NCBI GenBank assembly: GCA_015852425.1
Contig: JAAAIG010000089.1
Location: 4,079 to 68,078, forward strand
Origin: Gryganskiella cystojenkinii
Taxonomy: Eukaryota > Mortierellomycota > Mortierellomycetes > Mortierellales > Mortierellaceae
Reading direction: 5' to 3'
DNA length: 64,000 nucleotides
Part shown: in pieces, positions 4,056 through 32,227 of the stretch
Layout: each line of letters begins with the position of its first letter
Numbering within the stretch: position 1 is the first letter of the stretch
Made by a program: the position numbers and the translations under genes
The notes under the pieces: model-generated
The model's input: only the letters and a program-made list of their open reading frames with translations
Told to the model about the DNA's origin: nothing
Database searches by the model: none

Positions 4056-4778
4056 TTAAAGAGCTCCCACGTCGGCGATCAACTTGGCATTGACGAGTAC
4101 CTTGGCGCAGAGGTCAATGAACGCCTTGATGTGGACATCAATATCGGAACGAACATGGATGATGGCGTGGATATCCACATCGGCCAAACCAAGATGAACG
4201 GCCAAATCCTTGATCGTCGCGTCGACACGAACCTTGGCGGCCACGGCCACATCGACCTTGATCTTGGCCACCAACTTGACAATATCGGCCTGGATCAAAG
4301 CAACGACTTTAACGACAATCGAGTGCGCATTCGTGTTCAAGCACTCATGATCCAACTTGGGGCAGATTCTCAAAACAACCGCGCGTACATGCGCGTCAAT
4401 GTTGGCAATCACCAAAGCCTTGACATCGGCCTGGATCTTAGCCTTGATATCGACATCAGCTTTCGCTTTGGCGCTGATCTCGAGGTCCTTGACGTTCACA
4501 TTCGCAGTGATCAATCCTCCGAGGACTTTGGCCGTGGCATCAAGTTTAACAGTCACGTCCGCACACACGTTAGCCTCGAGATCCACACAGGCGTCCAACA
4601 GGATCTTGGCCTCGGCATCAACAAAGAGCTTGACCACGGCATCGATCACGTTCGAGCCACCACGCTTGAGCAGACCGACTGCGGTCTCTTGTTGACGGAT
4701 CGTGGGCAGAGCCTCGGTTGTGGAAGCGGCAAAGAGGGAGAGGGCGAAAACTGCGGGAACGAAAGCGCTGATTCTCAT
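4056..4778 (-). CDS. Secreted repetitive Val/Ala/Asp/Lys-rich protein
   Basis: A 240-residue intronless gene; the ATG at 4778 opens a clear signal peptide (MRISAFVPAVFALSLFAAST, cleavage likely near residue 22, TEA-LP). The mature chain is built from degenerate short repeats in which Val, Ile or Ala alternate with Lys and Asp (for example KAKADVDIKAKIQADVKAL). This gives long amphipathic stretches that could form beta strands or helices. Cysteines occur in the middle (DACVDLEANVCADV, RICPKLDHECLN) and near the C-terminus (DLCAKV), so two or three disulfides are possible. I recognise no catalytic motif. It could be a cell-surface, wall-associated or lipid-binding protein. A TATA box lies 133 bp upstream and the leader carries a pentanucleotide repeat. 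An upstream in-frame extension exists but would bury the signal peptide, so it is not used. Confidence 0.8.
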   Translation of the reverse strand: MRISAFVPAVFALSLFAASTTEALPTIRQQETAVGLLKRGGSNVIDAVVKLFVDAEAKILLDACVDLEANVCADVTVKLDATAKVLGGLITANVNVKDLEISAKAKADVDIKAKIQADVKALVIANIDAHVRAVVLRICPKLDHECLNTNAHSIVVKVVALIQADIVKLVAKIKVDVAVAAKVRVDATIKDLAVHLGLADVDIHAIIHVRSDIDVHIKAFIDLCAKVLVNAKLIADVGAL

Positions 4779-4918: not shown

Positions 4919-6943
4919 CCAAAAAAATCCTTTACCAGGGAGTTATTTTTGTGGGAAGTGGGAAGTTGGGAGGGAGGGGGACTCGAGGTACTTCCAAGGG
5001 TGCAAAAAGAGAATGGAAGGATAGTATAATCATGGCACCTAGAAGGTAACTGGGGGCGCGATAATAATAGCGCTTCTTGACATGGTTCCTGGCAACAATT
5101 AGCCAAATGAGAAAGATAGAGGTAAAGGCTAGAGTTCTCAAGAATTGCATGCAGAGAAAAAAAAGTTAAAAACAAATATAGGGTTAGAGTGCGTGTGTGG
5201 AACTGCAGGTCTAAAGAAGAAGGAGAGAACGAGAAGGGAGGTGGAAAAACGGAGAATGAGAAAGGAGAGGCAAAACCCGATCCCGCCCCTGTTTGCGTTT
5301 TGAAAAAAAGGACATTCCTCTCCAGCATAGAACCCATCAAAGGAAGTGGTCCAAGCCAAAATTTCCAGATCGGGCTCACAACTTCGTTTCTCTTTTTTTT
5401 CAACGAAAAAGGGGTGTGCAAGCACGCATGTCTCTTTCGCTCTCGACTGCTGCAAGAGAAGGGGAGAAACCACTCCTTTCTGCGTTTGACAAGTGATGCA
5501 TTGAGCATTGACAAGCAGAGCAAAGTGTTGTCAGCAATATGGACACGAAAAAAGGAGAGAAAGCAAACAAACGGTGGGTAGCCTATATTAACGGATCTCT
5601 CTCCCTCTTTTCTTATCCAAGGAAAGCGTCTGGGGTATATTTAGTCGTTGTTGGCACTGACAGTGATCTACTTGCTTCAACATGCCAAAGGTTTAAAAAA
5701 AGTGGTTATGAAAAAACAAAAATATGTGTCACGAAAAGTGATCGTAGCTTTACAAAAAGAAGCACTGTTTTCTTCCATTGTGGTTCGTAGCTCAAAGCTC
5801 TTTTTCTGGCGCTTGTGTATGTGGGAGTGTGTCTGGTACCATTCCCCCCCTCCTGGAGTTTCCCCCCTATCCCTTGTTCGTTTTAATAGCTCTCTGCATA
5901 TCTTACACGACCGCCCCCACAACTGGTGGATCTTCGCTTTTTTTTGTTCATTTTTTTTCCTCCGAAATTGTTGGGGACTAGACCAAGGTTCCTTTTTGTA
6001 GTCGGGTGATATCCCTCTGGTGGAGATAAAGTTCTCCGACTGGAAGAGTCTTTCAAAAACGCTATGGCGAGATTCTCATTGACCCATGATGAAATGAAAA
6101 AATCCTAGACCTCCTTAGGTCCTTCTTTCTCGCGTGCTGGTTTCCCATGGCCATACAACGGATCGCGTGCGAACTCGAGGGGGGGAGATGGAGGGGAAAC
6201 TGGACTCGAGGTTGAAGATCATTGTCCCTAGGGACCGTTCCTTTCTTGACCCAACTGCTCTTTCTACTCCTCTTCCTCCGCGGCGAGTTTTTTTTTATCA
6301 TGGTATTCGCGATATCCTAGCTTTTCCTTGCCTCCTGGTTTCTAGTCGCCCAGCCTATAAAAAAACAGCGCAGCCTAGTGGAAAATCGGTTACCACGGAG
6401 AGCCAGCATTGAGAAAGGTGAGGGGTAGTTAGAAGTCAGACTTGTGGTCAGGGGAATGGAGGGGGACGGGATAGCAAACCATTCTCTACAAGTCACGATA
6501 TTTTTCCTGTTACTCTTCTTGAGAGCAACTCCTTTTCAACAGGAGTACAGTAGGAAAATGTTCGATAAGCCGTGATTCTTGGTCTACGTTGGAAAAACAT
6601 ACGGTCATTGTGCGGTACCACATGAAAAACCGTCTCTTACTGGTAACTTCATATGCAGGAGTCAAGCAAAAAAAAAAAAAAAAAAAAAAGAGGAGAAATA
6701 TCTATTTCCAAAATGGCGACTGATTGTGTCGAGTTCGAGGAATTATCACGTTCCAGATAGACTCCTTGCAGGTTGGAAGATACATCAGATATGGTACATC
6801 CCTTTTGTGCTTTTGTTTTATTGTTGCGAAAAAGAAAGAAAGACAGAGATTTTTTGTTTTTTGGTGTTCGGATTTGCCATGTATGAGGATAAAAAATACC
6901 ATAGCTTATGCCCTCGGTTTCTCAAGAGACAAGAGCAGGATTA
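4919..6943. other. Long intergenic region without a supported gene
   Basis: About 2 kb with no convincing ORF. It holds pyrimidine- and purine-rich tracts, an A-run of about 20 near 6668-6688, and a TATA-like AGCCTATAAAAAAAC near 6351-6365 with no gene behind it. It must contain the upstream control region of the secreted protein gene and the 3' UTR of the PARN gene. Confidence 0.55.
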
Positions 6944-9675
6944 CTATGAGCTCGTCAGGTTGATGCATCCATGGTTCGACCGACCCCAGTGAAGGATATT
7001 GAAGAACATCTTGATCGCTGGACTATCGAATGAAAAGGGCCTGCCGCTCATCGAAGGTACCTGCTGTTCTTTAATACGATCGTCGTCATACTCTTGTTCG
7101 GATCCATTGGACAGCCCGTCTTCCTCTTCCACTACCAGCAACTCTTCCACTTTCTTGATAAGTTCTTCCTTGACAGCTGTCTTTGGAGTAGGAGGCACAG
7201 TAGCCACAGTCGCAGCCACAACCGGTACGGCCGGTGCAAGCTTTCCAGCTGGAGTTGAAACAGGCATGGGAGCAGGTGCGGGTGTTGGCGCTGCAGCGGC
7301 CGACTTAGCGGCGACCGCGGCCAAGGCGGCGATCTTTTGGCGATTTGCAATATCGGCATAAGAGAACTTTTTCGGTGCAGCAGGAGTCGCAGGTACTACT
7401 GGCGCTGGTGCAGGGGTAGGAGCTGGGATGGAAGCCGGTGTCGCAATAGAGGTAAGGGGTTTATCTCCTTCTTTGCCGTTCTTTTTGGCTGTGCTCAGGT
7501 TGATGGGGTACTTTGCATTCTTCTTCTCGACTGCAGTCTTCCCTGATCCATTGTTCTTTCCAATGCCATTGGATCCTGCCTTTCGCACGTTGTCGGGAGT
7601 AGCAGTAACAGCGAGTGGTGATGCGCGATATGTCCTTGAGATATGAGCCAACATGCGGATCAGGATGGTGCCGGTGATGTATGCGTCGTACCCGGCTTCA
7701 TGTGCAAAATCCTGTCCATGCATTTGTCGAAAGTATCTGTTGTGGCGGTACTGAAGACCTATCCACGGATAAAAGTCTCCGATTAGAACCTGTCGATAAA
7801 GAGGCCAATACCATTCACACGTATGTTCATGAACAGCCCTTACAAACGTTGGGACATCCCATGAAGGTCACATGCCCCACCAAGTTCTCCAACCCTCCAA
7901 GTGTCGAATCATGCACCAAGCCCTATAAACCCAAAGATTGACAGTGAGATCGTCGTTAGAATATATAGATGATATATAATCAGATGTCAGAGGTGGATTA
8001 CAACAGTTCATTGCATCCGTACCCTGAACGCTTCGGCAGTGTATGACACATATTTGGTGTCGATCAGCCTAACGACGATAAGACGTAGACTCTAGGTTAG
8101 TATCTGGTGTAGCACTGAACGGAAAGCTCTAGACAGGCCAAAATAAATGCAAAAGGATACTTACGTGGGAAAAGTGCGATGAACCATCTCCTTGTATCCC
8201 TCCATCGTGGGCGGCAAAGGTCCAACAAACTGAGCAATGATATACGCCAGATCTACGACCACATTGTGGCCCACGATGGGTTTCTTGCAGGCGGACAACA
8301 TATCTATCACTGAACGGAATCCACGCGATTGCTCAATATCTCTCTAGAATGCGCAGGAAAGGTTAGGAGGAAATGACTGTTAGTCCTAGTATACTCGTTC
8401 GTGATAATATCCTGCTGCGGTAAAAAAAAGAGCTTATTTTTGAACATACCTCGACGTCAGACTGCTTCCGCTGGCGATCGATCTCCTGTTGCTGAGGGGT
8501 TGTCTGTGTGATGGTGATCATTGAAGCGCGTCCCTGCGCATGCAATTCAGTGGGCCATCTAATAGACAGTGAAGGACGGATATAAATCATGGATTGATAG
8601 AGCCACGTCAGTACTAAACCTCCATGTCTTCATCTCTGTCCACAGCATTTCCTTTGGAGATTCCTTACAGGCGACGGACTTCCTGATAAACAAGTCGGCG
8701 CTGGTAAGCCGTGTTGCATTGAATGTTGACGAAATTGAGTGCCTCTGGGTTCGATTTCCATTCTTTGATCCGACGACTAATTTTTGTGTTTTTGTTTGTA
8801 TTTCAGCAATGAAGTTAAAGACACGTATTAATAACAGGTATAAAAAAGCTCAACTCTGCGACGTCGACATGCCATACGACAAACGGCCCATCAAACGCTG
8901 TCCTCGCCCATACATGGCATCTTCGATAAACTTCTTGCTGGCTTCGTCGATATGAATGACATCCAGATCATTGTTCGCCAATCGTGTTCTCTCTGCCCTG
9001 TAGACGACCTCTTCCTGCTTGGTCATATAAGGGACACCTAGGAAATCGAAAAACGAACGTTACATAAGTCGTTAACTCGACGCGCCTTGACCCTCTCTTG
9101 CTGCTCCTTGTCACCTTCATTTTTTTTTTTTGGGCTGCACTTACCTTGATACACCCACTTGTTAAAATCAAAATGGTTCCGGGCCAAGAAGTCCAGGGAC
9201 GAGGCCTCTGTCAAAAAGCATCGCCCCTGAGGCGCATATCCTGTCAGGGTCGTCGGAAAGATGAAAAAATTGAACGGTCGCGCAACATAGCCTCCATTGG
9301 AGGGATCGAAATGAAACGTTGAAATCCCGATTTGGACCGTCATGAACTGAGTCGCACTCTTCCGAAGTTCCTGGTAGCCCTCTTCCATTGTTGTAGTATG
9401 GGTTCTCTTGTTGGGTTCTGTGTGCAGACCTATTAGTATGCACGAATATCAAGAGACAGAGTTTAGTTGCATTCAATGCCATTGCCCTGAGAAATCCACT
9501 GTATATGGAGAGACCCCGTTTTGCGCGCGCGTATGGATTGCATCAAAAAAAAGTCCTAAGAATAAAGATTGGTACCCGAGAACTCTGCATCGATCGCGAT
9601 AAAGTCGCATTCGTCGATCGCCGTCTTTATCCAGGGCAGTTCCGAGTAAAAGTTGTCGCGAAGGACCTCGACCAT
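6944..9675 (-). CDS. PARN: Poly(A)-specific ribonuclease PARN
   Basis: Predicted 614-residue CAF1/DEDD-family 3' exonuclease that shortens poly(A) tails. Nine exons fit with consistent frame: 9675-9576, 9429-9145, 9037-8914, 8776-8669, 8558-8450, 8343-8165, 8068-8023, 7922-7844, 7758-6944. The start MVEVLRDNFYSEL aligns with the PARN N-terminus. Exo I is AIDAEFSG (Asp29, Glu31), Exo II is GHNVVVDLAY (Asp273) and Exo III is HEAGYDAYITG (His363, Asp368), so all four acidic metal ligands and the histidine are present. Residues between Exo I and Exo II match the R3H insertion region (FIEDAIRRIKEW). The C-terminal 200 residues are low-complexity Pro/Ala-rich, then acidic, and their exact end is less sure. 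The exon 8/9 junction was chosen for frame and a GTAAGG donor; alternatives exist. Confidence 0.9.
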
Positions 9676-18646: not shown

Positions 18647-20470
18647 ATGGACATCCGAATCTTTTCGAATAAGGAAAACGCCGACGAGGACCGCGAGGCC
18701 GTCAATTTACCTAGTTGGAATTCCCTCACATTCACCGCTGGACCAGCTGCCCATGGCTCTGGTGTCGTAGTTCATGTTCACGACGTCAACACATATGGCC
18801 TCTCTCTGGCTAGCAACAAGGTCACTTTTACAATCGACCAAGCAGGACGTCTTATGCAGAACCTAGAGAAGCTGGAAAAACGACGAGATCCAAACCTACT
18901 AAAATATGCTCGCCCGCGACAGCCCACCTACTCGCAATTACAACAAGGACAACAACAACAGCAACAACAACAACAAGTACAGATCCAGCCATCACAAGAC
19001 CACTCTCCTAATCTGATACCTCCACCTCTGATGGCAACCTGGCCAGCAACGTCCAAACCTCAACAACCTCAACCAAAGGCAATTCCCGTTGCACCAATAT
19101 CATCAACGAGGAGAACAAGGGCCAACACCAGGAGCCTTGTTGCCACTGCCACCGTCGCCACAACAACGACACAAACCACTACTAGTACCACGACAACCAC
19201 CACAAAACAGTCACCGGCGAGGAGCGTGGAGGTGTTACTTGATGCCCACCAAACCCTATTAAGATCCACATCATCGAATCAGAGCTCATCGCCTTCCTCG
19301 TCGTCGTCATCATCGTTCAAAGCTCCTCGGGTCTCCAAGGTGACACTCCCGGTCACCTCTCCAATTGCAAGACCAACGGCGCCACAACCGCAACCAGCGA
19401 CACAAATCCCGCCTGAACCTCAGGGCCCACGAGCTACGGTCGTAGAAGCGCTGCGCCAAAAGGAGCGCGAGATTGCCGAGGCCCTCGCTCGGTTGAGGCA
19501 ACATATGCAGACCCAGAGTCAAGCCTCGGTTGACTATCTAAAGAGCCTCGGGACAGGCTTTCTGGGGAATACGGTATTAGGAAGTGGTGCGAGACCGGAT
19601 GGGGGAACAAACGTCAACATCTCTAATTATACCAATGCCAGGACTCATATTTCGACGACTGCCACTACCCCTACCCCTACCAGCGCCACTAATAACAATT
19701 TCGTCGCTATCAGCCAGGCCACGAGCAGGAGTCCTCTATCTCAGCCTGCAACGGCCACGTCTATTCCTACAACGGTGCCAACACCTGTACAAAGAGCAAC
19801 GCCTATGACCACGGTCAGTGCATCACATCAACCTCCAGCATCCGCAACAACAAAGGCGACGACACGGACAGTAGTAGCCGCAGCACGCGTGTCTGTACCT
19901 AAAACGGCAGCAACACCAACACAGACGCAGACAACGGCACCCAAAACGATGCCTGTGATCTCGACCAGGGCAGCATGTCTGCCACCGGCACCGGCACCGG
20001 CATCAATACCCAAATCCACGACAACATCAAACGTCTTCACGGTGCCTGTATCTACGCGTCCACCCCACAGAACAGCCATTCTTCCGCCAACGACGAAGGC
20101 ACCGACGATGCCAGTCCCAGCACTGACCACAGCAACTGCGACTCCTGCTCCTGCTTCAGCTTCGGTTACTCCTGCGCCCGAACCACCGTATGCACCCGTT
20201 ATCGTCTCATCTGATTTTATTAAAAAGACAGCAGAGGGACGGATGTTGGTCTTTGTGAGTATCAAGCCACTACTAGGAAATCTCTACCTCGTGGAGACAG
20301 GTCGTTCGGAAACCATCGGATGTCTCAAGCGCACACTTCACCGAAAGTACGGGATTCCGGAAGACCAACAAAGATTTTCTTTTGCAGGCAAGCTCCTGGA
20401 GGATCATCTCACCCTTGGACATTACAACATTCAACGAGAAGCAACCCTTCAACTTACAAAGCGAAGATGA
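18647..20470 (+). CDS. Ubl-family member 1, long Thr/Pro/Gln-rich linker
   Basis: An intronless 607-residue protein and first member of the cluster. Residues 1-65 carry the family N-terminal domain ([19 protein letters not shown]). Residues 95-525 or so are a very low-complexity linker with polyQ, Thr runs, Ser runs and Ala/Pro, plus one charged helical stretch ([19 protein letters not shown]). The C-terminal 75 residues are ubiquitin-like: [20 protein letters not shown], then [18 protein letters not shown] and [12 protein letters not shown], ending KRR. The lysine of the GKQLED motif is retained. The terminal Gly-Gly is absent, so conjugation through the C-terminus is not expected. The chosen ATG is the one that aligns with the MDI start of the paralogues; an upstream in-frame extension has no ATG support. 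Role unknown: by layout an adaptor or shuttle-like Ubl protein. Confidence 0.85.
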
Positions 20471-20719
20471 GAGAAAAGGCGATAATAAAAAACCCCCCAA
20501 GCAAAACAAAGATTTTTTCTTAATTATTTCTTTTACATTTATTTCATGATTGTCGAAAGAAAAAACATAAGTTACCACATCCCTTCTTTGTTTCGTTTAC
20601 CAATTACGGACATGTTCCCTTTATTCTCTAGTTCTTTACAATTTTTTTTCTTTTTCGTTCTTTGCTTCACCTTCTCCCACATAACTTTTCGCTTAACGAA
20701 CGACGACCCACTTCCCACT

Positions 20720-21181
20720 ATGAATACTCATCTGTCCAACAACTCCCCCGTCGTATCTGCCAACAACGTCTCAGGCATAGTCACGACCGCCAGATCTGCC
20801 ACCAATTCAAATCCGCTCTCGTCGCGAACTCAGTTCGAATCGCAAGAGCCCAAGAATTGTCAGTGGACCGACTACTTAAAGTTCAAGAGACCGGCAAGAG
20901 TCCAACAACCCATGTCTATCTTGGCCGCTCTCGCGCTCGTGACAGTGACTGTTGTGGCCCCCTCTGCCCCTGCTGTGGTCGTTGCCTCGGCCGCAGGACC
21001 GGAGCGAGAGGAGGAGAAAGTGGAGGAGGAGAGCGAGGATGACGACGAGGTCATTGAAGACGCCTCGAGCTATGTCTCCACGGGACAACATGCATCCCAA
21101 GTCCATCATGCACCTGGCACATCTTTCCTCCACACGGCGTATTCCGATCGCAAGAACGTCCAGGATCTTCTAAATGCCTAA
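20720..21181 (+). CDS. Small hypothetical protein inside the Ubl cluster
   Basis: A 153-residue intronless ORF from the ATG at 20720 (MNTHLSNNSPVVSANNVSGI). It has a Ser/Asn/Thr-rich first half, a hydrophobic stretch near residues 72-97 (MSILAALALVTVTVVAPSAP), a strongly acidic patch (EREEEKVEEESEDDDEVIED) and a polar tail ending QDLLNA. It shares neither the MDI domain nor the Ubl with its neighbours, so it looks like an unrelated gene or insert. The hydrophobic stretch could be a membrane helix, with the N-terminus preceding it. A longer frame upstream reads through the pyrimidine-rich leader and is not favoured. Function unknown. Confidence 0.6.
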   Translation: MNTHLSNNSPVVSANNVSGIVTTARSATNSNPLSSRTQFESQEPKNCQWTDYLKFKRPARVQQPMSILAALALVTVTVVAPSAPAVVVASAAGPEREEEKVEEESEDDDEVIEDASSYVSTGQHASQVHHAPGTSFLHTAYSDRKNVQDLLNA

Positions 21182-21507
21182 TAAACAATATCTCCAAAGC
21201 AGCCCTTTCGGCACCGTTTATAACAGCTGGAACCTCAAAAAATAAATCACCTGCGTTTACTCGCTGTTCACTATAGTGGTGGTTGGAAGGACGCTCTCAT
21301 TTTTTACACGTTGGCTCTAGGAATCCGTCCAAGTACATTTTTGAATTGCAGTCCAGCTACAAAAACAACAAAAAGGTATCAAATCTATGCATAAAAAGCC
21401 TCGAGTGTGGACATTTTGTTCTTCTCTCTCTACCTTTCTCTTCCTTCTTCCTCTCCAGCCACAACTTCCTCTACGCACGTACACGCCTTCACTCTCTTTC
21501 TCCTGTC
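21182..21507. other. Intergenic leader region in the Ubl cluster
   Basis: 326 bp with a CT-rich stretch (about 21415-21507) directly before the next start codon, as seen before other cluster members. No gene. Confidence 0.5.
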
Positions 21508-22314
21508 ATGGACATCTCCTTCTCAGAGGACGCAGAGGGCAGGAAACTCAATTTCTTGAACCTCTCCACTGACACGCCAAATACCGTTACGGCCAAGCCT
21601 CCGAAATATGACTCTGACGCGGTCACGGTCAAGATGTTCGACGCCCGTTTCGGTGCCCAGATCTCCAGTGGTGGGAACAGGAACCTCTCAATCACTCGAG
21701 TTGTAGTTCCGCGGGGAAAGCAGCGGCAGCAGCGTCCCCCAAAGCGCCAGCGCTATTCTGAAGACGATGTCAAGTCCTCGATTAAGAACAAGAATACAAA
21801 GTTGGATCAGGGTACGTATGACTCGACCATGTCCAAGTTTTCGAGTCTTTCGAGCAAACCCAAGGCCCCACATTCGCCCATCATGTCCAAGTCCAAGACC
21901 AAGACTAAGACCAAGTTCAAGCTCAAGATCAACTCCATCCTCAACCAGGCTGTTGATATTGCCAAGGGCGCCGCTGTTACTGCTAGTTCAGCTATCGACC
22001 TCGGTCCTGGAGCAATGCAGGTTAAGGAACCAGAGTCGGGACCGGAACCAGAGCAAGAGCCAGAGTCATGGCCAAAAAAATTAACGCCGGTGTTTCTCAA
22101 AAACATCGATGGCCACACGCTTGTCATTAATGTCGATCTCTCGGGCACCTTTGGCGACTTCAAAATCCGAATTGAGGAAAGGACCGGTATTCCTGTATAT
22201 CAACAACGACTCCTTTCTGGAGGCAGACAACCTGAGGACCAAGAGACTCTTGCGGATTGCAATATCGTGAGGGAGTCAACAGTTCATCTGGTGCTTCGAC
22301 TTTGTGGCAGCTAG
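21508..22314 (+). CDS. Ubl-family member 2, basic linker
   Basis: An intronless 268-residue protein. The N-terminal domain starts [20 protein letters not shown] and is the most diverged of the family. The linker is basic and rich in Lys, Ser and Pro ([16 protein letters not shown]), with a short PEPEQEPES acidic repeat. It contains a probable nuclear-type basic cluster ([14 protein letters not shown]). The C-terminal Ubl reads [38 protein letters not shown] and [14 protein letters not shown]. The usual GKQLED lysine is replaced by Arg, and the C-terminus is CGS rather than RGG, so ubiquitin-type conjugation and K48-type chains are both unlikely. It sits about 290 bp upstream of member 3 on the same strand. 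Confidence 0.85.
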
Positions 22315-22606
22315 AGGTCTTTCGTCTTCTTTCGAATCGACTATTCCTCGGTCCAATACTCCAATATCTGACAAATATAGGGCCTGCAGTCCTTCAGAAT
22401 AATGTCCACAATAAAAAAGTCTTTTCTAAAGTCTTTTCAATGCGAATTCGCTGGTCATTTGCTCGCCTTGTGAACACATAATAGCATCGAAAAGACTCTC
22501 GCGGTGCGGTGTTCTTATCTTGCACGTTTTTTGAGGCTTGCAATCCCTTTCTCAATTTTTTTTCCATTCGTCCTTCCCTTTCTCACCCACAAACATACAC
22601 GCCACC

Positions 22607-23110
22607 ATGGACATTGTCGTCTCCTCGACAAGCGCGAATGGTAAGGTCACCAAGTTGGCCAACCTTACCCGTGAAGGAATGATCACCGTCACCGTTGAGC
22701 CAGCGAATGATGGCTCTTGTGGTGTCACTCTCAAGGTAGTCGATTCAGAGAAACACTCTGTTCTCTTCTCCAGTCCGACCTTGACATTTTTGGTCGACGA
22801 CGCCATGACCCCGAACCAGATGCAGCGAGAGTCTATAATCTCGCGGCCCCCGTCTTGTTCCTCCTCGGGGTACAAATCTCAAATCTTTCTCAAGACACTC
22901 CATGGAACGATAATCACACTCGGAGTCGATCTCTCGTCGGACACCATTGCCGCCTTCAAGATTCAGGTTCAAGAAGAGACCGGCATTCCTCCAGACCAAC
23001 AACGACTTATTTTTGCGGGCAAGCAGTTGGAGGACCAGTCGACTTTTGCAGATTACAACATCTTAAAAGAGTCAACAATCCATCTTGTGCTGCGACTCTG
23101 TGGCAGTTAA
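22607..23110 (+). CDS. Ubl-family member 3, compact form
   Basis: An intronless 167-residue protein and the shortest complete member, so it shows the basic architecture best. The N-terminal domain ([20 protein letters not shown]) covers residues 1-67, then a linker of only about 25 residues, then a full Ubl. The Ubl is close to ubiquitin ([58 protein letters not shown]). Lysines equivalent to ubiquitin K48 and K63 appear conserved by motif position, while the terminus is CGS instead of RGG. ATG in good context (CCACCATGG). High similarity of the Ubl to true ubiquitin suggests descent from a ubiquitin coding unit, with loss of the conjugation terminus. Confidence 0.88.
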
Positions 23111-23394
23111 AGAAATAAGGGTTCCTTTCGTCCTTTTCGAGTCAATTCTCTCGTCGGTTTCTTCCCCACAACTTCAACGAACAATCAACCAGCAGTCTCT
23201 CAGAAGAATGACCACAAAAAGTAATAAAAACGTGTTTTCTTTCGTTTGATCGAAGGCTATTGCATCGAGTCGTCGGGCATTGACTCACAATGTGAACGAA
23301 TAAAGCAGATGTTTTACTCTCGAGCTCCATTCCTCTGTCTTTTATCTCCATTCCTTTTTCTCATCTCTCAAAGCACGCTCTCTTCTAACACATC

Positions 23395-23871
23395 ATGGAC
23401 ATTGCGGTCTCCTCGGTAAACAGAGACGGTATGGTCTCCAAGCTGACCAACCTTACGTGTGATTCATTGTTTAGTGTCACTGCGACGGCATTGAACGATG
23501 GCTCCGGTGGTGTCACAATCAAGTTGGTCGACTCCCAAAACAAATCCGTTCTCGTCTCTGGTCCCACCCTGACCCTTTCGATCGACAAGGCTGTGGTGTT
23601 GCACCAACAGCAGCAACAGCGACAGCCAGGACAAGAACGACAACAGTCCTTGCAGCCCCATCTGTCAATCCCCTTGTCTTCGTCTACAGCGCCTTTGAAA
23701 GATGTGGTCGCACTCCACGATCGAAGTCCGGTCGCATGGAGAACTCGTGGTCAGTTAATGAATCAAGCTCCAGTCGCGTGGAGAACCCGTGGTCAGTTGA
23801 CGAACAAGGCTCGTCCATGGACCGAGTCATATCCCTTCGGATCAACAACCACTCATTTTAATGCCAAGTAG
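23395..23871 (+). CDS. Ubl-family member 4, N-terminal domain only
   Basis: A 158-residue intronless ORF starting MDIAVSSVNRDGMVSKLTNL, close to member 3 through residue 67 (VTIKLVDSQNKSVLVSGPTL). It then has a Gln-rich linker and, where the Ubl should be, a different tail. That tail holds two near-identical 14-residue repeats (PVAWRTRGQLMNQA and PVAWRTRGQLTNKA) from a 42-bp DNA duplication, and ends at TAG without any ubiquitin motif. It may be a truncated copy whose Ubl was deleted, or a functional variant acting through the N-terminal domain alone. The ORF is intact, so it is reported as a gene. Confidence 0.65.
   Translation: MDIAVSSVNRDGMVSKLTNLTCDSLFSVTATALNDGSGGVTIKLVDSQNKSVLVSGPTLTLSIDKAVVLHQQQQQRQPGQERQQSLQPHLSIPLSSSTAPLKDVVALHDRSPVAWRTRGQLMNQAPVAWRTRGQLTNKARPWTESYPFGSTTTHFNAK
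23731..23814 (+). repeat. Two-copy 42-bp tandem duplication
   Basis: Units 23731-23772 and 23773-23814 share the core GTCGC(A/G)TGGAGAAC(T/C)CG and keep frame, encoding the duplicated PVAWRTRGQL segment of Ubl-family member 4. Confidence 0.85.
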
Positions 23872-24236
23872 TAAGATGGCGGATCACTTTGGTGGAATAC
23901 AATTTCAATTACTCTTCCTCTCTTGCTTCGCTGTGGCCGTTAAAGGTTTCGTCTCCTAACGAATCGACTCCACCTCGGTACTACCCTTTTCACCACCAGC
24001 GGATGTCGGACCAGTATTCTCCCAAAATAATGATCTCCCAAACAATATTAAATTTTTTTTTATTGCCCTCTGATCAAGGTCACTTTCATGAGAGTCGTGA
24101 ACCATAGGAACAGCGTGTGGGCGTGCAAAGCCTGGCAGCGTGATTGTCGTGCTTTTCACCATCCTTCATGTCCCTTTCCTATTTTCATCTTCTTCGTCAT
24201 CCATCTCAAGCACGCGTCCTGTCCCCTTCTATCGCT
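23872..24236. other. Intergenic region in the Ubl cluster
   Basis: 365 bp without a supported gene. The last part is CT-rich leader-like sequence before a degraded ORF at 24237. Confidence 0.5.
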
Positions 24237-24476
24237 ATGGCGGGCCGCCATCTCGAAAATCGCGAGGGACAAGGCCACGGTTCTCAGTTCGACGCCAAGG
24301 TCCTGATTGGCAATGTTTGTCAGGATTATCCTCACAGAATACATACCTTCCAGATCGAAGCTACAGACACTGTGCACAGCGTCTGGGGGGGGGGGGAGGT
24401 GTGTAAGCGAATAAGAGCCAGGAATGCAATGATGAACACGATACAACTCGAAAAGAGCAGTTATAAGAATACGTGA
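24237..24476 (+). pseudogene. Ubl-family remnant A
   Basis: A 79-codon frame from the ATG at 24237 (MAGRHLENREGQGHGSQFDA). Its middle, VLIGNVCQDYPHRIHTFQIE followed by ATDTVHSV, resembles the first beta-hairpin and helix start of a Ubl (compare VFVKTL...TITLEVEPSDTIENV). The frame then runs into a homopolymer of nine or ten G (near 24386-24395) and loses similarity. It has no MDI domain and no C-terminal half. I read it as a decayed Ubl copy in the same orientation as the cluster. Chance similarity cannot be excluded. Confidence 0.45.
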
Positions 24477-24755
24477 GCTCAAGCTGCAGCAAGCTCTGCC
24501 AGAGCGTTAATGAGCACTCCTGAGACTCCAAGCTGGTAATGACTTTTGGACTCTAGCATAACGAGTTGCTGCTGGGGTTTTGTAACCAGCTCAGCCACTC
24601 GCTCGGCAAAGAGTGATTTCCGAGATCCGTGACTGCACTTTTCTCGTCCTGGCCGCATAACTGTCCTTTCAGCCCACAACATTGTCCTTTGCATTCATCT
24701 CTTGCTTTTTTCATCTCAACTGTGCAACAATCTCAACTCCCTGGTCGCCACTCTC

Positions 24756-25688
24756 ATGGACATCAACGTCTTTTCATCGTCCGACAGGGACAACCACAGC
24801 AAAGTCGCAAATGTCAACCTAAAACCTCCCTGTACCGTCTCTGTCGAATCCGCTGACGATGGTTCAGGAAAGATCATTGTCAAACTGATCGACCATCACA
24901 ACCAAAGTATGACCTTCTCAAGCGAGACGTTGTCCCTCACCTTTGACCATATCCAAGGACTTTTACAGCAGCGGCAGGAAATACAACAACTACAGCAATC
25001 ACAGCAACAGCAGTCTCAGGATCATGGAGTCGCCAGCCGATCTTCGCATTCGATCCGTCAACCTCCACAAACACAGCCAGTAGTACCGCCGCTGCCTCGT
25101 CGGTCAGGACGACACACAACTCCTGCCGTTACTCCTCTAGTGTCGCCACTACAGACCCAAACACAATCACAGAAAAGCAGGCAAGGAACAGAGCCTGCTG
25201 AACAAAACCAGAAAGATCACGGCCAAAAGCGTCCGCGGCATAGCGATGAGAACGACGACAGTGAATCCAGCAGCTCCAAGAGTTCCAAGAGCAGGACGAT
25301 ACCAGCAGCGACAGTCACCACTGCGACCGCCACTACCGCGGCATCTTCTTCTTCTTCGTCTTCGTCTTCGATCGACCAAGCCTCATCAAGACTAAATAAT
25401 TCAACAAGTCGAGTTGTCCAAAACTATAACGGAAGTCAGACACCCAGGGCGGGGATGATGTTCATTTTCATCAAGACCCTGACAGGCAAGATGATTGTCT
25501 GTGAGGTCAAATTCACAACTACGGTCTTTGACGTCAAGTTGAAAATTTTTATGTGGGAAGGAATTCCTGTAGAGGTGCAGAGACTGATCTTTGCAGGCAA
25601 GATCTTGGAAGATGAAAACTCGTTACAGGAATATAATATTCAAAAGGAGTCTACGCTTCACCTCCAACTTGTGGCGAGAGGAAGTTGA
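24756..25688 (+). CDS. Ubl-family member 5, Gln/Ser-rich linker
   Basis: An intronless 310-residue protein. The N-terminal domain ([20 protein letters not shown]) ends near residue 68. A linker rich in Gln, Pro and Ser follows, containing a basic motif ([10 protein letters not shown]) and a long Ser run. The C-terminal Ubl is [36 protein letters not shown] and [18 protein letters not shown]. The first strand KTLTGK and the IQKES motif are identical to ubiquitin, while the helix ([11 protein letters not shown]) is diverged. The chain ends RGS. The start was chosen at the MDI methionine; the frame opens 18 codons earlier at a non-ATG codon. Confidence 0.87.
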
Positions 25689-25825
25689 AGCTCAGTCTTC
25701 AAAATATATAGTAAAAAATAAAAAGTCCTTCTATCTGATGATATACCAATTTCAGGCAAGAAAGCAAAAGGACGTGGTTTCCCGACTTTTTATTTGATCC
25801 CTCAACAACAATAGTAACAGCAACA

Positions 25826-26745
25826 GAATGCACAACTACGTGGACTGGCATGACACGAACAACTATGGCTGCTGCTACAATGGCAATAGCCGCTGCAAAA
25901 CTTCAAGCCTCTCTTTCTAGCGCAATCAGTTACCACCGTAGCTGCGGCACAGTCACAGACAACGAAACCAACGATGGCACCGCCGTCACTACCAGCAACA
26001 ACAGCAGCGGCAACGAGCGCCTCAGCATCGTCTAATGAAAGAATATCTTGAAGTGCTACACCTCCTCGCACATCACTCCAGACTCGTCTGTTGCCATAGT
26101 GTCGTCCAAAAGCTCTAGGACCAATCGAAAATCCTCAGGTCGGGGCCAACGAATCACACCTGAAATCGATCGATGATGGAAACGAAATTCAAGTTAAGGC
26201 GACGCGAAGAAACTACGATCCAGGAGCAATCGTCGCCAAGATGACTGAGACAACTACACTTGCACGACAGGGAGCACATCGGGCACCATAACCTTCACTA
26301 CTACTGCTGCTCTTGCTTCCACTCCTGCCACTGGCATTAACACAATCGCTACATCGTCAACGTCGGTCACGTCAATACCCTCGTTCGTGTCTTCTCTTTC
26401 CAGAAATACTTCGATTGCGATTGGTTCTGCATTGAGAGAACTTCAGAACATCAAGCACGGCATGATGCGGGTCTTTGTTAAGACCCAGGCGTATCGTCTT
26501 GAGCTCACACCGTTGACGACGATCCGTGAAATCCGATGCATGCTTTGTGAACGGTGCACTCACCTGGAGTTGGAGTCGGAGATGCGTCGCGTCTTTGTGG
26601 AGAAGCACCAACCCATTGTTCATCGCCTGAGCTGTCGACCGCCAAAACGCATTGGTTGGTGAGAAACCACTCGGACAAGAGCCGTTCCTTCTCCGAGGCC
26701 AATGTCACCGCGCCAAAGGTGATGGTTGTCCTCAGGCTCTTGTTG
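25826..26745 (+). pseudogene. Ubl-family remnant B, frameshifted
   Basis: A broken copy in cluster orientation. It begins with Thr/Ala/Ser-rich linker-like sequence (from about 25826). Near 26305-26450 it continues as another Thr/Ser linker, then a Ubl start (MMRVFVKTQAYRLELTPLTT followed by IREIRCMLCER) is readable up to about 26600. The Ubl C-terminus reappears at about 26660-26735 in a different frame (SFSEANVTAPKVMVVLRLL, compare [20 protein letters not shown]). Stops and at least two frame changes break the unit and no MDI start is visible. This split of one Ubl across frames is the clearest sign of gene death in the cluster. Confidence 0.6.
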
Positions 26746-27002
26746 GCACGTACAACCCGTTCCTTTGCTCCCAGCTATTCCACGCAATTTCTTCCCTTAC
26801 ATTTCGCACCCCCTTGGATCGGTCACATGCATAGAGTAAAAAAGTCTCTTTCCCGTTTAACGCGAATTTTCGCGTTTTCTTTTTTGAAAGCAAAAAAAGG
26901 CCATTCCCAATCAATCGATCCATTCGTCTCTTTCTTCATTCCCGTCCATATACTCTTTCATTCCACCCCCTCCCCCTCCCAAACGCTCACTTCACTCTCA
27001 CC

Positions 27003-28139
27003 ATGGACATTGCCGTCTACTCTGGAAGCACCGACAGTCAAAAGCTGATCAAAATGGCCAGTCTCACACGTGGACCGACCTGCACCTTTGTAGTCGCCCC
27101 TTCCATGGACCCATCCGGAGAAGGCGTGATCATCAAAGTGCTCGATGCCAACAATCAATACATCCTCGTGTCCGGTGCCACCTTGACCGTCGACATTGAG
27201 CTCCCAAAGACACAAAAACTTGTACTCCAATCACAGATTCATCAATTGCAAATGCAGGTTCGACAACAAGAACAGCAATTGTTGGAGTACGAACAACAGC
27301 ACGGCAAGCTGCTGCAACTTTCTCAACTGCCTCATCACCACCAGCACAAACTGGAACTGGGAATACAAAAGGAGCAGAAACTGCTAAAGGAAGACCATCA
27401 CCATCATCATCAACAACAACATCACAACCATAAAACACCTCCTTTAAAGTCACACCCCTCTGCATCCGATCACGTCTCCAAGAATGACCACAGCAAGCCC
27501 GAGGCGGTCCAACATGACCTCAGAAACAGGACAACAACGACCACAGTGGCAACAAAGCCACCGAAAGGCGTCGCGAAGACTTCAGTGACAAGCAAAGCGG
27601 CAAGATCACCGCCATCCTCCCGTCTTAGAGGATCCCATCCTCAACTTGCACCCCTTGCTCGAACTCGCAAGCAACAATTGGGCAAGCAATTGGATCCTGC
27701 GCACACCAAACCAGAGAGTCAGTCGACCAGGGCAAAGCGTCCCCATCACGATATCATCGGTGATGGCGACAAGGTCGAAAGACGCGAGTCCAAGAGCCAC
27801 AAGACGGACACAGTCAGCAAGCCTACCACTAAGGCCGCCGCCAAACGATCCCCAAAGAACCATGAGCAAACCAAGAAGAAGGCAGAGAAAGAGGACGGTC
27901 AGGGAGACGAATCGGTCCGAATCATTGTAATGACTCCTCTCAATTGCTCTCATTCGTTCAAGATCAAGAGATCGACCAAGATCTCGGACCTCAAGGGCTT
28001 GATCTCGAATAAGGAGGATGTTCATCCGGACCAACAGCGCCTCGTTTTCAATGGTCAAGTCTTGCAGGACAATCGAACCCTCTCGGACTACAACATTGTT
28101 GAATACATGTCCACCATTGACTTGGAAATCATTAGCTGA
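27003..28139 (+). CDS. Ubl-family member 6, coiled-coil and His/Lys-rich linker
   Basis: An intronless 378-residue protein with ATG in strong context (CACCATGG). The N-terminal domain (MDIAVYSGSTDSQKLIKMAS) is followed by a probable coiled coil rich in Gln, Leu and His (IHQLQMQVRQQEQQLLEYEQ). A His-rich patch (KEDHHHHHQQQHHNHK) and a basic Lys/Arg/Pro linker come next. The C-terminal Ubl is the most diverged: first strand SVRIIVMTPLNCSHSFKIK, but DQQRLVFNGQVLQDNRTLSD and YNIVEYMSTIDLEIIS keep the ubiquitin pattern. The GKQ lysine is replaced by Gln, and no Gly-Gly is present. The coiled coil suggests self-association, an inference from sequence only. Confidence 0.85.
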   Translation: MDIAVYSGSTDSQKLIKMASLTRGPTCTFVVAPSMDPSGEGVIIKVLDANNQYILVSGATLTVDIELPKTQKLVLQSQIHQLQMQVRQQEQQLLEYEQQHGKLLQLSQLPHHHQHKLELGIQKEQKLLKEDHHHHHQQQHHNHKTPPLKSHPSASDHVSKNDHSKPEAVQHDLRNRTTTTTVATKPPKGVAKTSVTSKAARSPPSSRLRGSHPQLAPLARTRKQQLGKQLDPAHTKPESQSTRAKRPHHDIIGDGDKVERRESKSHKTDTVSKPTTKAAAKRSPKNHEQTKKKAEKEDGQGDESVRIIVMTPLNCSHSFKIKRSTKISDLKGLISNKEDVHPDQQRLVFNGQVLQDNRTLSDYNIVEYMSTIDLEIIS

Positions 28140-28350
28140 AGAGGTAGAACGAAATACAAATCCATGTTATCCACTTTTTTATGGTATCGCCATGGTCGTC
28201 GTTGCTATTAAGCAAAAAAAAAATAATTAACGTTTGGTGCAAGTAACAAATCGCGATCTGCGTCCACGCTCAGGACGCCTTGAGCAACAAGAGGAGGGGT
28301 GTCCTTATTTAGCCCACTCAAGTTAAAAAATTTACATGGGATTTGTACCA

Positions 28351-28370
28351 CAAACCCTAACAAACCCTAA
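28351..28370 (+). repeat. Two tandem CAAACCCTAA boxes
   Basis: Two exact 10-bp copies of a telobox-like motif (AAACCCTAA), 57-76 bp upstream of the start of Ubl-family member 7. They lie in its probable promoter or leader. Confidence 0.85.
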
Positions 28371-28426
28371 ATAACTGACTGAACAAAGAGTTCGATCATT
28401 ACTCCTTTGCATTAAACCAATTCACA

Positions 28427-29296
28427 ATGAATATTGCCGTTTTCTCGGGGAATGAGACTTTTGGCGACACGGACAAAGTTGCGAGTCTCACTCGAGGTCC
28501 GACTTTCAAGATCACGGCTGTACCAACTCCAGATGGGACCGGCGTAACCATCCAGTTCGTGGATTCCAAGAACCGAGCCGTCGTCTTTTCAGGCGATGCC
28601 CTGACGTTGTCGTTTGAGCAAACACCAGAGAACAGGCTGGAACAGCAACAGAAACAACCTCCGCCACAACCGTCGTCCTCTCCGTCATGTTCATCTTCTT
28701 CGTCATCGTCGCCGCCAGTTCGACAAGACAATCCGCCCAGGTGTCCAGATCCATCGCGCTCAAGTACTGAGTTTTCTTCAAAACAAGAACAATTCCAGCT
28801 TGTTCCAGTATCAGAAGCAAAGTCGACCCACCAAGAGTCCCCGAAAAAAAAGCGACCCCGGTATGACCCGGAGACAACAGCAACAACAACATCAACAACA
28901 ACCCCCCATGGCATCAATAGGAGCAAAGATGACATCATTATCAAGAACCAGCACAACGACTTCAACAACAAAAAGGAAACCAAAGAGAATGTATTCGTGA
29001 ATACAGATGGAAGAGTTACAAGAGAATCAACAGCCTCAACAAGCGCGCAAGGCAATGAAGAGGTTACAATCACAATAATGAGCGACATGTATAAGTCCTT
29101 TGTCATCAAAACCCGACTTTCACGCACGGTCGATCAAGTGAAGTGTCTTATCCAAGATAAGCTGGGTTTCCCACCGGACCAGCAGAGGCTTATCTATGAA
29201 GGAAAACAACTCGAAGATGGGCGTCTTCTTTCGAACTATGTTATTACAAGAAGCGAAGTTGTTTTCTATCTCGTGTTCCGCTTAAGAGGCAGTTAG
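28427..29296 (+). CDS. Ubl-family member 7, ends RLRGS
   Basis: An intronless 289-residue protein, last member of the cluster. The N-terminal domain starts [20 protein letters not shown] and shares the SLTRGPTF segment with member 6, its closest relative by eye. The linker is rich in Gln, Pro, Ser and Thr and carries a basic motif ([10 protein letters not shown]). The Ubl reads [40 protein letters not shown] and [11 protein letters not shown]. The terminus RLRGS differs from ubiquitin RLRGG only in the last residue. The K48-equivalent lysine is retained and the K63 position is not. A pair of telobox-like motifs precedes the start. Confidence 0.87.
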
Positions 29297-29711: not shown

Positions 29712-32227
29712 CTACTCGTCCCAATCCAACAAGTGGTTCGAAGCTTTCTCCAGATCGTAATCGTATTTCTCCAAAGCCCCCCGACTCTGTTCCCGAGTGA
29801 ACCCCATATGCACCAGCTGGTTGATCAACGTCTCCGCATGAGGAGGAGCAGCTGGCGCAAGCTGTTGTTGCTGTTGTTGTTGTTGTTGATCCACCAAAGT
29901 CACCTCATCCGGGAAACTCCCAGGCAACGCCGGACCTTTTGTGTTGTTTTTCAGCCCCACAAACATTTCGTGGTCCTTGGGAGGTCGAGGTCTCAAAGCC
30001 GGTCGTGGCGCGGACGAAGAGGATCCATCGGCCGCGAGAGTCGCTACTGAGGATGACGTTGGAGGGGGTGGTGGCAAAGGTGGACGAGGTGGGGTCATGG
30101 TCATGGACCTGTCCAGAATCACAGTCGACGTTTGATCACTCGCGGTAGCGTTTGAGGGCGAATCACCACCATCGGTAGGCCGGTTCGGTCTAGCAGGGAT
30201 TGGAGGTCGGCTAATACCTCCAGTCGCGGCTGTAGCCCCAGCCGTCGGAGAGGCATTCATGCCTCTTGGTGGTGGTGGCAAGGGTGGAGGAGACGGGGAC
30301 GCGCTTCCGAATCGGGCCTCGCCTCCGAACCGGGCCTGTTGCTGAGCTGGGGTCATACCTCCAACACCACCAGTGGAATGACGATGTGGCTGTTGTTGCT
30401 GTTGCTGTTGTTGTTGGGGTTGTTGCAGTTGATGTTGTTGATGTTGCTGAAGAAGCTGATGTTGGAGGGCGAGTCCGGTCAACTTTGGAGTTGGGGTATA
30501 AGCCGCCACGGGGATCGGAGAAGAGTTGTACTGTCCAGTAGGGCGTGCACCTGGATTCGTGCCGCTGCTATTGTTGCCACCGTTATTGCCGTGCGCACCG
30601 TATTGATAAGAAGAGTGCACAGGCTCGGCTGACGACGACTGAGGTTGGTACGGTTGTTGCTGCGGTTGAGGTTGCTGCTGGTACGAGTATTGTTGCTGTG
30701 GTGGCTGCTGAAGTTGTTGCTGCTCTTGCTGAGGAAGAACCTGAGATCCTCGATTCTGAGCATGGGTGTTTGTCGGTAAGGAATCGTACCCTTGCTGTTG
30801 CTGAAGCTGTTGTGATGAGGTAGCGCCAGTACTGACATTACTGTGACCCATCTGTTGAGCAATCACATCCTTGAGTGCAGCCAAATCATCCACGGGGGTA
30901 TCCCACGGATCTGGGGGCCCAAGTCCTTGTTCAAACTCGCGATAGTCCAATCGAGCCGCGGAGAAGGAGGGCTGGCTCGATTTCTAAAGTAGAAAGAAAG
31001 AATAATAGGAAAACATGTTTAGCTTTCTTACATTGTCCATCGCGAAAACACATCTTTGCATTGCAGTACAAAAAAATCTTACCTCTGACGCGGCATCTCT
31101 CTCGGTCCATTGACGAGGAGCAGCGTTCGAACTCGACTCTTCTTCCAGACAACTGTCGCGCAACATCCCTGTGAGCTCTGAAAGTGGAACAGCTTGCACA
31201 ATGACTTCTTCCTCGGGTTCGTCAACACTCAAGGCACCTCCAGTAGTACGCGCATGATCCTCGTTAGGTGAAGAGCTGGTGCTCGTCTGTTGCCGCGGTT
31301 GCTGGTACTGGTGCTGGTCCTGCTCCGCCAACGCAGCTTTCTCATCCTTACTGCTCGGGAACTGTGCCGCACTGTTGTCAACTACAGGACTGTCGCCGCC
31401 TTCAAACTCGCTGTAGTCGAATCGCTTGTTGCTCTTGTTGTCCAAAGGAAACTCATTGCCATAATCCTTGGGCAAGGAGGAGGCCGAAATAGTCGTCGCA
31501 GCGACCAACGTCGGGGTCAAGATTCTACGATCATCATTGTCCAAGAAACCAGGAGCGATTTTACGAGCACGCGAGAGTCGTTCTTGCTTTAGTCGGGCCT
31601 GTCGTTCCTCCGCATAGAGCTTATAGGCGTTTTCTTTGGCTTCGAGAACAGAGGCTTCCTCGGTCATGATCCTTTGGTATTCTTGGACAATCCTGTGTTC
31701 CAATGTGAATTCGTGGTACCTCTATAATAGGAAACATAAGAAACAAGTGATAAGACGTTGGTCAGTTTTGGTCTTCCACCGTTCACAAGTATAGTTGGTC
31801 CATAGTATAGATGTAGCAAAAGGACGGTATTTCCTTACCCTATGCAGGATGTCGCTTGGAAGAGCATGCATATCATAAGGAGGTGATATCTATCAGATTT
31901 AAAACAAGTACAGTCGTTGTCAGCGCTGTGTATAAGTGAACAAGCACACCTGTGCCAAGCCTCGTGCCAAGGTAACAAAACGACGCCGTCATGTCATAGA
32001 GAAAAGAAGTAAGCGTAGGCCAGTAACATACATGAACTGGCACTTTGAAGAGGGGCGATGCAATCATCTGCACATTCTTGACATCATGGTACGGGGAGAC
32101 ATCTATTCGTCCAAAGTCCAAGAAAGAGAAAGGTTGCGCGATTAGCATGCTGTGGCTGCAGTGCTCCACGTTTTTTTTTTTTTTTTAAATTGAATTCCTT
32201 AATTGTTCACATACGATGCTGAGCCAT
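29712..32227 (-). CDS. UBA-domain protein, UBAP1-like ESCRT-I candidate
   Basis: Predicted 681-residue protein. Five exons: 32227-32215 (13 nt), 32102-32032, 31889-31839, 31721-31083, 30983-29712. The N-terminal part reads SPYHDVKNVQMIASPLFKVP, then ISPPYDMHALPSDIL, then RYHEFTLEHRIVQEYQRI. The pattern of a short hydrophobic Pro segment followed by an aromatic F-x-LE-x-R helix resembles the MVB12/UBAP1-associated (UMA) region, though only loosely. A charged helix follows (EERQARLKQERLSRARK). The middle is Gln-, Pro- and Ser-rich with several polyQ runs and Pro-rich (PPPLPPPP) motifs. The C-terminus is a UBA domain (ETLINQLVHMGFTREQSRGA, then LEKASNHLLDWDE), which binds ubiquitin. Likely role: recognising ubiquitinated cargo for multivesicular bodies. 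The UBA is firm, the ESCRT assignment tentative. Confidence 0.8.

Follow-up and report, generated by a model that had tools for sequence, protein, structure and literature searches.

A cluster of co-oriented genes in the fungus Gryganskiella cystojenkinii raises the question of what use a cell might make of ubiquitin that has lost the end by which it is attached to other proteins. The genes lie at 18647-29296 of a 64,000-nucleotide stretch of contig JAAAIG010000089.1 (assembly GCA_015852425.1), here called the window, which lies on the contig (71,186 bases) that we number C951 among the 1050 contigs (35.0 Mb) of the genome searched. The genome has the marks of a fungus: of 29 matches to the fungal transcription factor domain PF04082, 28 lie above its cut-off, and it has a chitin synthase (PF01644). 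There are seven, head to tail on the plus strand, each a single open reading frame (ORF) from ATG to stop, and six of them encode an N-terminal module of about 65 residues (N-module), a low-complexity linker and a C-terminal ubiquitin-like domain (Ubl). An earlier reading of the letters alone, made without database searches (the sequence-only reading), had described six intact genes and one truncated gene in less than 11 kb as a possibly undescribed family. We find that the two-domain family is real and coherent, that it has a second array elsewhere in the genome and is under purifying selection, and that its Ubls, to judge from their sequences, are derived from ubiquitin itself, with a changed tail that probably no longer permits attachment to other proteins. 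The sequence-only reading had mentioned neither the lost terminal Gly-Gly, nor the nearness to true ubiquitin, nor the motifs in the linkers, features from which the mechanism proposed below is built.

Two arrays of a two-domain family

Both parts of the protein can be followed through the window array. Pfam places the ubiquitin domain PF00240 at the C terminus of six of the six two-domain copies (E 2.6e-14 to 4.2e-24), and the N-module, which begins MDI or MNI at the first codon, aligns in all seven genes, the other six being 28-55% identical to that of U3. Linkers measure from 21 (U3) to 468 (U1) residues, so that the range of 25 to more than 400 proposed earlier was about right; the gene count, the strand and the two-domain build also stand. 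In the six intact genes, each of the two alternative frames contains 4-18 stops.

U1 (18647-20470, plus strand, as are all seven; 607 amino acids) has its N-module at 18647-18844 and, beyond the low-complexity linker, its Ubl at 20249-20464 (PF00240 E 1.5e-15); the Ubl tail is lost, the protein ending LTKRR. U2 (21508-22314; 268 amino acids; N-module 21508-21702, Ubl 22087-22311, E 1.1e-16) and U3 (22607-23110; 167 amino acids; N-module 22607-22804, Ubl 22877-23107, E 4.2e-24) both end LRLCGS-stop. U4t (23395-23871; 158 amino acids) is the truncated copy, with an N-module (23395-23592) and a linker and no in-frame Ubl. U5 (24756-25688; 310 amino acids; N-module 24756-24953, Ubl 25455-25685, E 7.2e-21) ends ARGS-stop, U6 (27003-28139; 378 amino acids; N-module 27003-27203, Ubl 27915-28133, E 5.5e-16) has a shortened tail ending LEIIS, and U7 (28427-29296; 289 amino acids; N-module 28427-28624, Ubl 29063-29293, E 2.6e-14) ends RLRGS-stop.

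With U3 as the query against the fungus's own genome, we found a second array on contig C390, in a 10 kb stretch (L014) to whose positions the following coordinates refer. It comprises five ORFs in one orientation: two clear two-domain copies, Ca (3992-4516; PF00240 E 1.1e-22) and Cb (4955-5611; E 4.9e-25); a broken copy, Cd, with an N-module (6823-7329) and a Ubl displaced by frame breaks (7356-7581); and two partial copies, Cc (5993-6532), with a divergent N-module and a Ubl seen only with our own profile, which included Cc, and Ce (7965-8342), with a Ubl (E 1.5e-18) and no N-module. Scores of our local profiles for family members are circular in this way throughout, the members having built the profiles. 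Scraps of Ubl lie upstream of Ca (3173-3342; score 78.5, where 25 shuffles reach at most 23.6) and downstream of it (4667-4723; 33.9, where they reach at most 22.3).

The N-module is thus present in 11 of 12 copies across both arrays. In a tree, one branch (support 97/96) sets the window N-modules apart from those of array 2. With a profile of the window N-modules, 0, 28, 1 and 4 of 500 shuffles score as well as Ca, Cb, Cc and Cd, respectively; the converse profile, from the four array-2 sequences, gives 0-3 of 500 for the window set, and is weaker when built from Ca, Cb and Cd only (2-49 of 500, the hhalign value falling from 86.8% to 17.7%). On these alignments the N-modules of both arrays are likely, but not overwhelmingly so, to be homologous, and the shared architecture and shared tail support a common origin of the arrays. 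Local amplification, as proposed by the sequence-only reading, therefore needs amending: the tandem array is real, and, since it is one of two, either amplification occurred at two sites or a single array was divided. Five genome searches with single N-modules as queries returned the two arrays only, besides a weak match on contig C480 (E 0.2); each recovered only part of the known copies, and the local profile covered only the stretches fetched, so a distant copy could be missed. A retro-copied founder, also proposed earlier, is not supported by any evidence that we found; nor is one needed, because the units of polyubiquitin genes lack introns from the start and single-exon genes require no retrocopy.

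Selection was assessed with a codon model on a fixed tree, with one omega (dN/dS) per set of sequences taken from a grid of seven omegas and two kappas; a grid was used because an earlier comparison with omega 1 had also fixed kappa. Codon columns less than 70% filled were left out, as was Cc from the larger Ubl set. The best omega was 0.2 for the window N-modules (log likelihood 35.5 better than at omega 1), 0.15 for the N-modules of both arrays (72.5 better), 0.3 for the window Ubls (26.2 better) and 0.2 for the Ubls of both arrays without Cc and Cd (59.0 better). The codon trees are 12-30 changes per codon long, so that dS is saturated and these values are rough. Neutral evolution, which the sequence-only reading had named beforehand as an outcome that would count against a family, is nevertheless rejected: the family is under purifying selection, with dN/dS of about 0.15-0.3. 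This bears on the possibility that the genes are functionless, decaying duplicates, an old fusion that was amplified and is now eroding. Damaged copies do exist, as such erosion would produce (U4t lacks a Ubl, Cd is frameshifted, the Ubl of Cc is not recognisable to Pfam, Ce lacks an N-module, and array 2 contains scraps); yet six long frames in the window have stayed open although the trees span 12-30 changes per codon, omega is far below 1, and the tail and the linker motifs described below have been kept. We regard decay as very improbable.

Secondary structure prediction gives the N-module six beta strands and an all-beta composition. A Pfam scan of 11 N-modules gave no convincing match (best E 0.042), nor did profile searches of the PDB (best E 1.8) or of the viral PHROGs (best 0.099), and on these results we do not take it for a known domain. 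A fold search likewise gave nothing convincing, and no viral structure matched convincingly, although a missing match does not prove a new fold; the prediction suggests that the module may be an undescribed small beta fold. In a protein database, the U5 N-module drew 3 candidates, none of which scored, and five joined N-modules drew 2039, none at E<=10. When whole U3 was the query, ubiquitin swamped it: the best 120 of 7940 matches all fit the Ubl profile, 119 of the 120 hold RLRGG, and the N-module is absent from them (best E 0.19). These searches find only proteins of restricted length that share five-residue words with the query, and would miss distant relatives. That the family is possibly undescribed holds within the limits of the searches run. 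Among open-licence PubMed Central (PMC) papers, judged by title and the start of the abstract, none that we found describes this architecture, nor do the excerpts of PMC1949818, PMC11468923, PMC8778642, PMC11878562 and PMC9282857. The best reading is that the family is lineage-restricted and evolves by birth and death.

Several other stretches in the window were considered. Two remnants proposed by the sequence-only reading, at 24144-24473 and 26249-26659, do not beat shuffled controls: 25 of 300 and 27 of 300 of their own shuffles, respectively, score as high against the family Ubls, and frameshift-tolerant alignment at either place gave nothing above 25 shuffles. The second contains a seven-residue match, MRVFVKT, and has a weak N-module score (equalled by 3 of 300 shuffles). 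A candidate decayed Ubl scrap downstream of U4t (23831-23857) scores 26.0, where the highest of 25 shuffles scores 24.4; peptides from that stretch are matched by 143 of 300 and 67 of 300 shuffles, leaving it unproven. Between U1 and U2, a plus-strand ORF of 211 residues with an acidic stretch (20546-21181) has no Pfam match at E<=0.01; it was rejected as a family member, its Ubl score being matched by 20 of 300 shuffles and its N-module score by 269 of 300. Lastly, eight of the 12 copies in the two arrays (not U1, U7, Cd and Ce) have 100 bases upstream of the ATG that rank among the top 3% of the window in pyrimidine content. Such stretches would fit promoters, although this is weak evidence.

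A ubiquitin-derived domain with a changed tail

The family Ubls are 41-68% identical to the genome's own ubiquitin (U3 68%, Cb 64%, U5 62%), apart from Cc at 26%, and the PDB matches of U3 that were examined (the best 50 of 1379 and the best 60 of 281) are ubiquitin, its fusions or its variants. Of the two features that define type-I ubiquitin-like modifiers, the beta-grasp ubiquitin fold is present, as judged from the PF00240 matches in six of six copies and from an AlphaFold2 model of U3 in which the Ubl blocks mostly have predicted confidence (pLDDT) values of 87-93, and the last block 71. The other, a C-terminal Gly-Gly, is missing: Gly75 is retained in six of six aligned Ubls and Gly76 in none of nine, the order being Gly75-Ser76-stop wherever the tail aligns. 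In U1, U6 and Ce the alignment sets the last residue at 76 despite a shortened tail; these conservation counts are made without Cc, and the frameshifted Ubl of Cd is excluded from all Ubl tables and trees.

At the DNA level, GGN AGY followed by a stop ends eight copies (U2, U3, U5, U7, Ca, Cb, the broken Cd and the scrap before Ca), among which TAA, TAG and TGA are all used. The tail is lost or altered in U1 and U6 in the window and in Cc and Ce in array 2, and the genome's two polyubiquitin genes end GGF and GGQ. Most simply, the change at Gly76 would be older than both arrays, the 76-residue length having then been kept while silent sites and stops changed. Replacement of Gly76 by serine should block activation by the ubiquitin-activating enzyme, E1.

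Conservation is uneven over the domain. Lys27 and Arg42 are each retained in nine of nine Ubls, and identity is 0.36 over residues 1-35 and 0.71 over residues 36-63. With the Ile44 and Phe4 patches made up of the residues that we presume to form them, random surface sites are conserved at 0.52, the former patch at 0.68 (P 0.05) and the latter, less well than such sites, at 0.22 (P 0.018). Eight of nine Ubls have I, L or V at position 44. A phylogeny of the Ubl halves, suggested by the sequence-only reading as a check, did yield a tree, albeit one in which only 1 of 14 inner branches is well supported (the Ubls of Cc and Cd left out).

An alternative to the reading favoured below is that these are ordinary type-II Ubl proteins, in which the Ubl docks on the proteasome like that of a shuttle factor and delivers the cargo of the N-module, itself no more than a fast-evolving version of a known domain. 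The excerpt of PMC1949818 reports that many eukaryotic lineages have Ubl fusions of their own, and the nearest Ubl model in NCBIfam is that of Rad23 for 9 of 10 proteins scanned, with all scores far below the cut-off (best E 8.9e-9). In the family, by contrast, the Ubl lies at the C terminus and Pfam showed no UBA domain, and in a tree the family and ubiquitin stand apart, with weak support (62/71), from the genome's locus C263, which we take to be a Dsk2-like Ubl. We consider this alternative unlikely.

Two further ubiquitin-like loci were seen in the genome. On contig C714 (L017 3048-4742), a single ORF of 564 residues contains six consecutive, much diverged ubiquitin-like stretches, and on contig C181 (L015 2253-2477, minus strand), a ubiquitin-like ORF stops at LVLRLS, without Gly-Gly; no N-module was found in the 6 kb around it.

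Linker motifs and a possible mechanism

Outside two short motifs, the linkers are hardly alignable. The pattern KR[PQ][RH][YH], which we take to resemble a nuclear import signal, occurs in four of the six window linkers (shuffled mean 0.006; none of 5000 shuffles has as many): as KRQRY in U2 (21742-21756), KRPRH in U5 (25227-25241) and KRPRY in U7 (28850-28864, inside KKKRPRY), all three like a nuclear localization signal (NLS), and as the variant KRPHH in U6 (27735-27749), each on the plus strand. In array 2, three of the five copies (Cb, Cd and Ce) instead have PPSY, presumably a ligand of WW domains (shuffled mean 0.004; none of 5000 shuffles has as many). Neither motif occurs in the 147 other stop-to-stop ORFs of at least 100 amino acids in the window (six frames, 25,544 residues). 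Elsewhere in the genome, three loci (C624, C235 and C533) each have three WW matches adjoining a HECT domain, suggesting three Rsp5-type ligases in one fungus.

We tentatively favour, as a possibility rather than a probability, a lineage-restricted family of adaptors built around a captured, tail-locked, non-conjugatable ubiquitin that mimics ubiquitin. Without Gly76, the Ubl would not be efficiently activated by E1 or conjugated, and would therefore act as a fixed ubiquitin-like surface. Its Ile44 face, at least partly kept in several copies, would dock onto ubiquitin receptors or enzymes, candidates being the receptors of the proteasome and of Cdc48 or the ubiquitin exosite of HECT ligases, while the N-module would bind a partner or self-associate. 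The linker motif would serve as the address, directing the window array to the nucleus through KR[PQ][RH][YH] and array 2 to the WW domains of Rsp5/Nedd4 through PPSY, with birth and death accounting for the gain and loss of copies. The window array has no PPxY, and for it a role in the nucleus is the better guess.

For array 2, a precedent exists in the excerpt of PMC9282857, in which PPxY is a WW-domain ligand and yeast Rsp5 adaptors combine PY motifs with K63-linked di-ubiquitin, which strengthens the complex by binding the HECT exosite; mono-ubiquitin binds the HECT domain weakly (~201 uM, against 33 uM for di-ubiquitin), and I44A abolishes mono-ubiquitin binding. PPSY together with a fused Ubl would then amount to a permanent form of a ubiquitinated Rsp5 adaptor. 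A bolder extension, which we think unlikely, is that adaptor ubiquitination has been made genetically fixed in this fungus: paralogous tail-locked variants, each with a new beta-domain and an address motif, would permanently supply a signal that is added and removed enzymatically elsewhere, one set to Rsp5-type ligases and one to the nucleus. Natural ubiquitin variants that duplicate but cannot be conjugated would be an evolved counterpart of those engineered as research tools, and could reveal which faces of ubiquitin suffice for signalling without a tail; array 2, with a PY motif and a fixed Ubl on one chain, would make adaptor-linked ubiquitin activation of Rsp5-type ligases testable with a modification that cannot be removed.

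Several points weigh against the adaptor proposal. PPxY occurs in none of the six window linkers, which puts the window copies outside the Rsp5 link, and these linkers show no enrichment of the strict classical NLS, K[KR]x[KR] (three of six; P 0.11). Both motif patterns were picked after inspection, which weakens their statistics. The Ile44 patch reaches only a marginal P value, with a presumed residue set; the complete L8/I44/V70 triad is found in U3 and Ce only, of nine Ubls, and much of it is gone from U1 and U6, so that perhaps only some of the copies mimic ubiquitin. Pfam finds no ubiquitin domain in Cc even at E<=1, the role of the N-module is a guess, and the block at Gly76Ser is assumed for the family Ubls. 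In addition, the effect described in the excerpt of PMC9282857 needed di-ubiquitin, and the family proteins carry one Ubl.

Alternatively, the proteins could be competitive ubiquitin decoys, natural variants that inhibit particular deubiquitinases, ligases or receptors by occupying them and were diversified by conflict (with viruses, endobacteria or in incompatibility) and do not recruit cargo. Decoys would fit a tail-locked scaffold whose first half varies, tandem birth and death that left broken copies in array 2, and the lack of a relative among the proteins searched, and engineered ubiquitin variants are used in this way (excerpt of PMC5434665). Nonetheless, omega is 0.15-0.3 across whole domains, although a single omega per set, with saturation, could hide positive selection at individual sites; 11 of 12 copies retain the N-module, for which a plain decoy would have no need; and no recognisable conflict gene is present among the 20 Pfam-scanned window frames outside or between the members. 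We hold decoys to be on the unlikely side, and retain tail-locked adaptors as the preferred reading.

Neighbouring genes and known systems

The window neighbours recognised by Pfam, in the frames scanned, are of housekeeping and transport kinds: RRM proteins, MFAP1, a TPR-DnaJ protein, two carboxylesterases, an MFS transporter and a methyltransferase. The sequence-only reading held that the neighbours mostly have introns, for which three frames that begin inside their Pfam profile (MFAP1 and the two carboxylesterases) offer indirect support only. The carboxylesterase frames (PF00135; 48212-49528 and 51960-53282, plus strand) share one orientation and are perhaps a tandem duplicate. On the minus strand, a UBA-domain protein (29715-30983; PF00627, E 1.8e-6), a ubiquitin binder, converges on U7, perhaps by chance.

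Among known systems, BMI1/PCGF proteins are nuclear and have a C-terminal RAWUL Ubl that follows a linker, as the family Ubl does; Pfam finds no RING in the family, and RAWUL only in U1 (E 0.045; 14.6 bits against a cut-off of 33.5). UBTD1/2 (DC-UbP) likewise combine an N-terminal domain with a C-terminal Ubl, but their N-terminal domain is helical, whereas the N-module is predicted to be all-beta, and no UBTD match was found by Pfam in the window proteins, the 11 N-modules or array 2. Rad23, Dsk2 and Ddi1 resemble the family in having a non-conjugated Ubl, a flexible linker and a second domain; their Ubl is N-terminal, that of the family C-terminal in six of six window copies, and Pfam finds no UBA (at E<=1), STI1 or protease domain in the seven window or five array-2 proteins. 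PY-motif Rsp5 adaptors, which are arrestin-related, have PPxY, as do three of five array-2 copies and none of the six window linkers; none of the five array-2 proteins has an arrestin domain according to Pfam, and the ubiquitin-like moiety is fused and single, rather than K63-linked di-ubiquitin, but Cb and Ce do pair PPSY with such a moiety, as in the excerpt of PMC9282857. Lastly, the family differs from the units of polyubiquitin in having serine for Gly76, no following unit, 41-68% identity and a fusion behind an N-module and linker, and resembles them in its fold, in Lys27 and Arg42 (nine of nine each) and in intact tails that end at residue 76.

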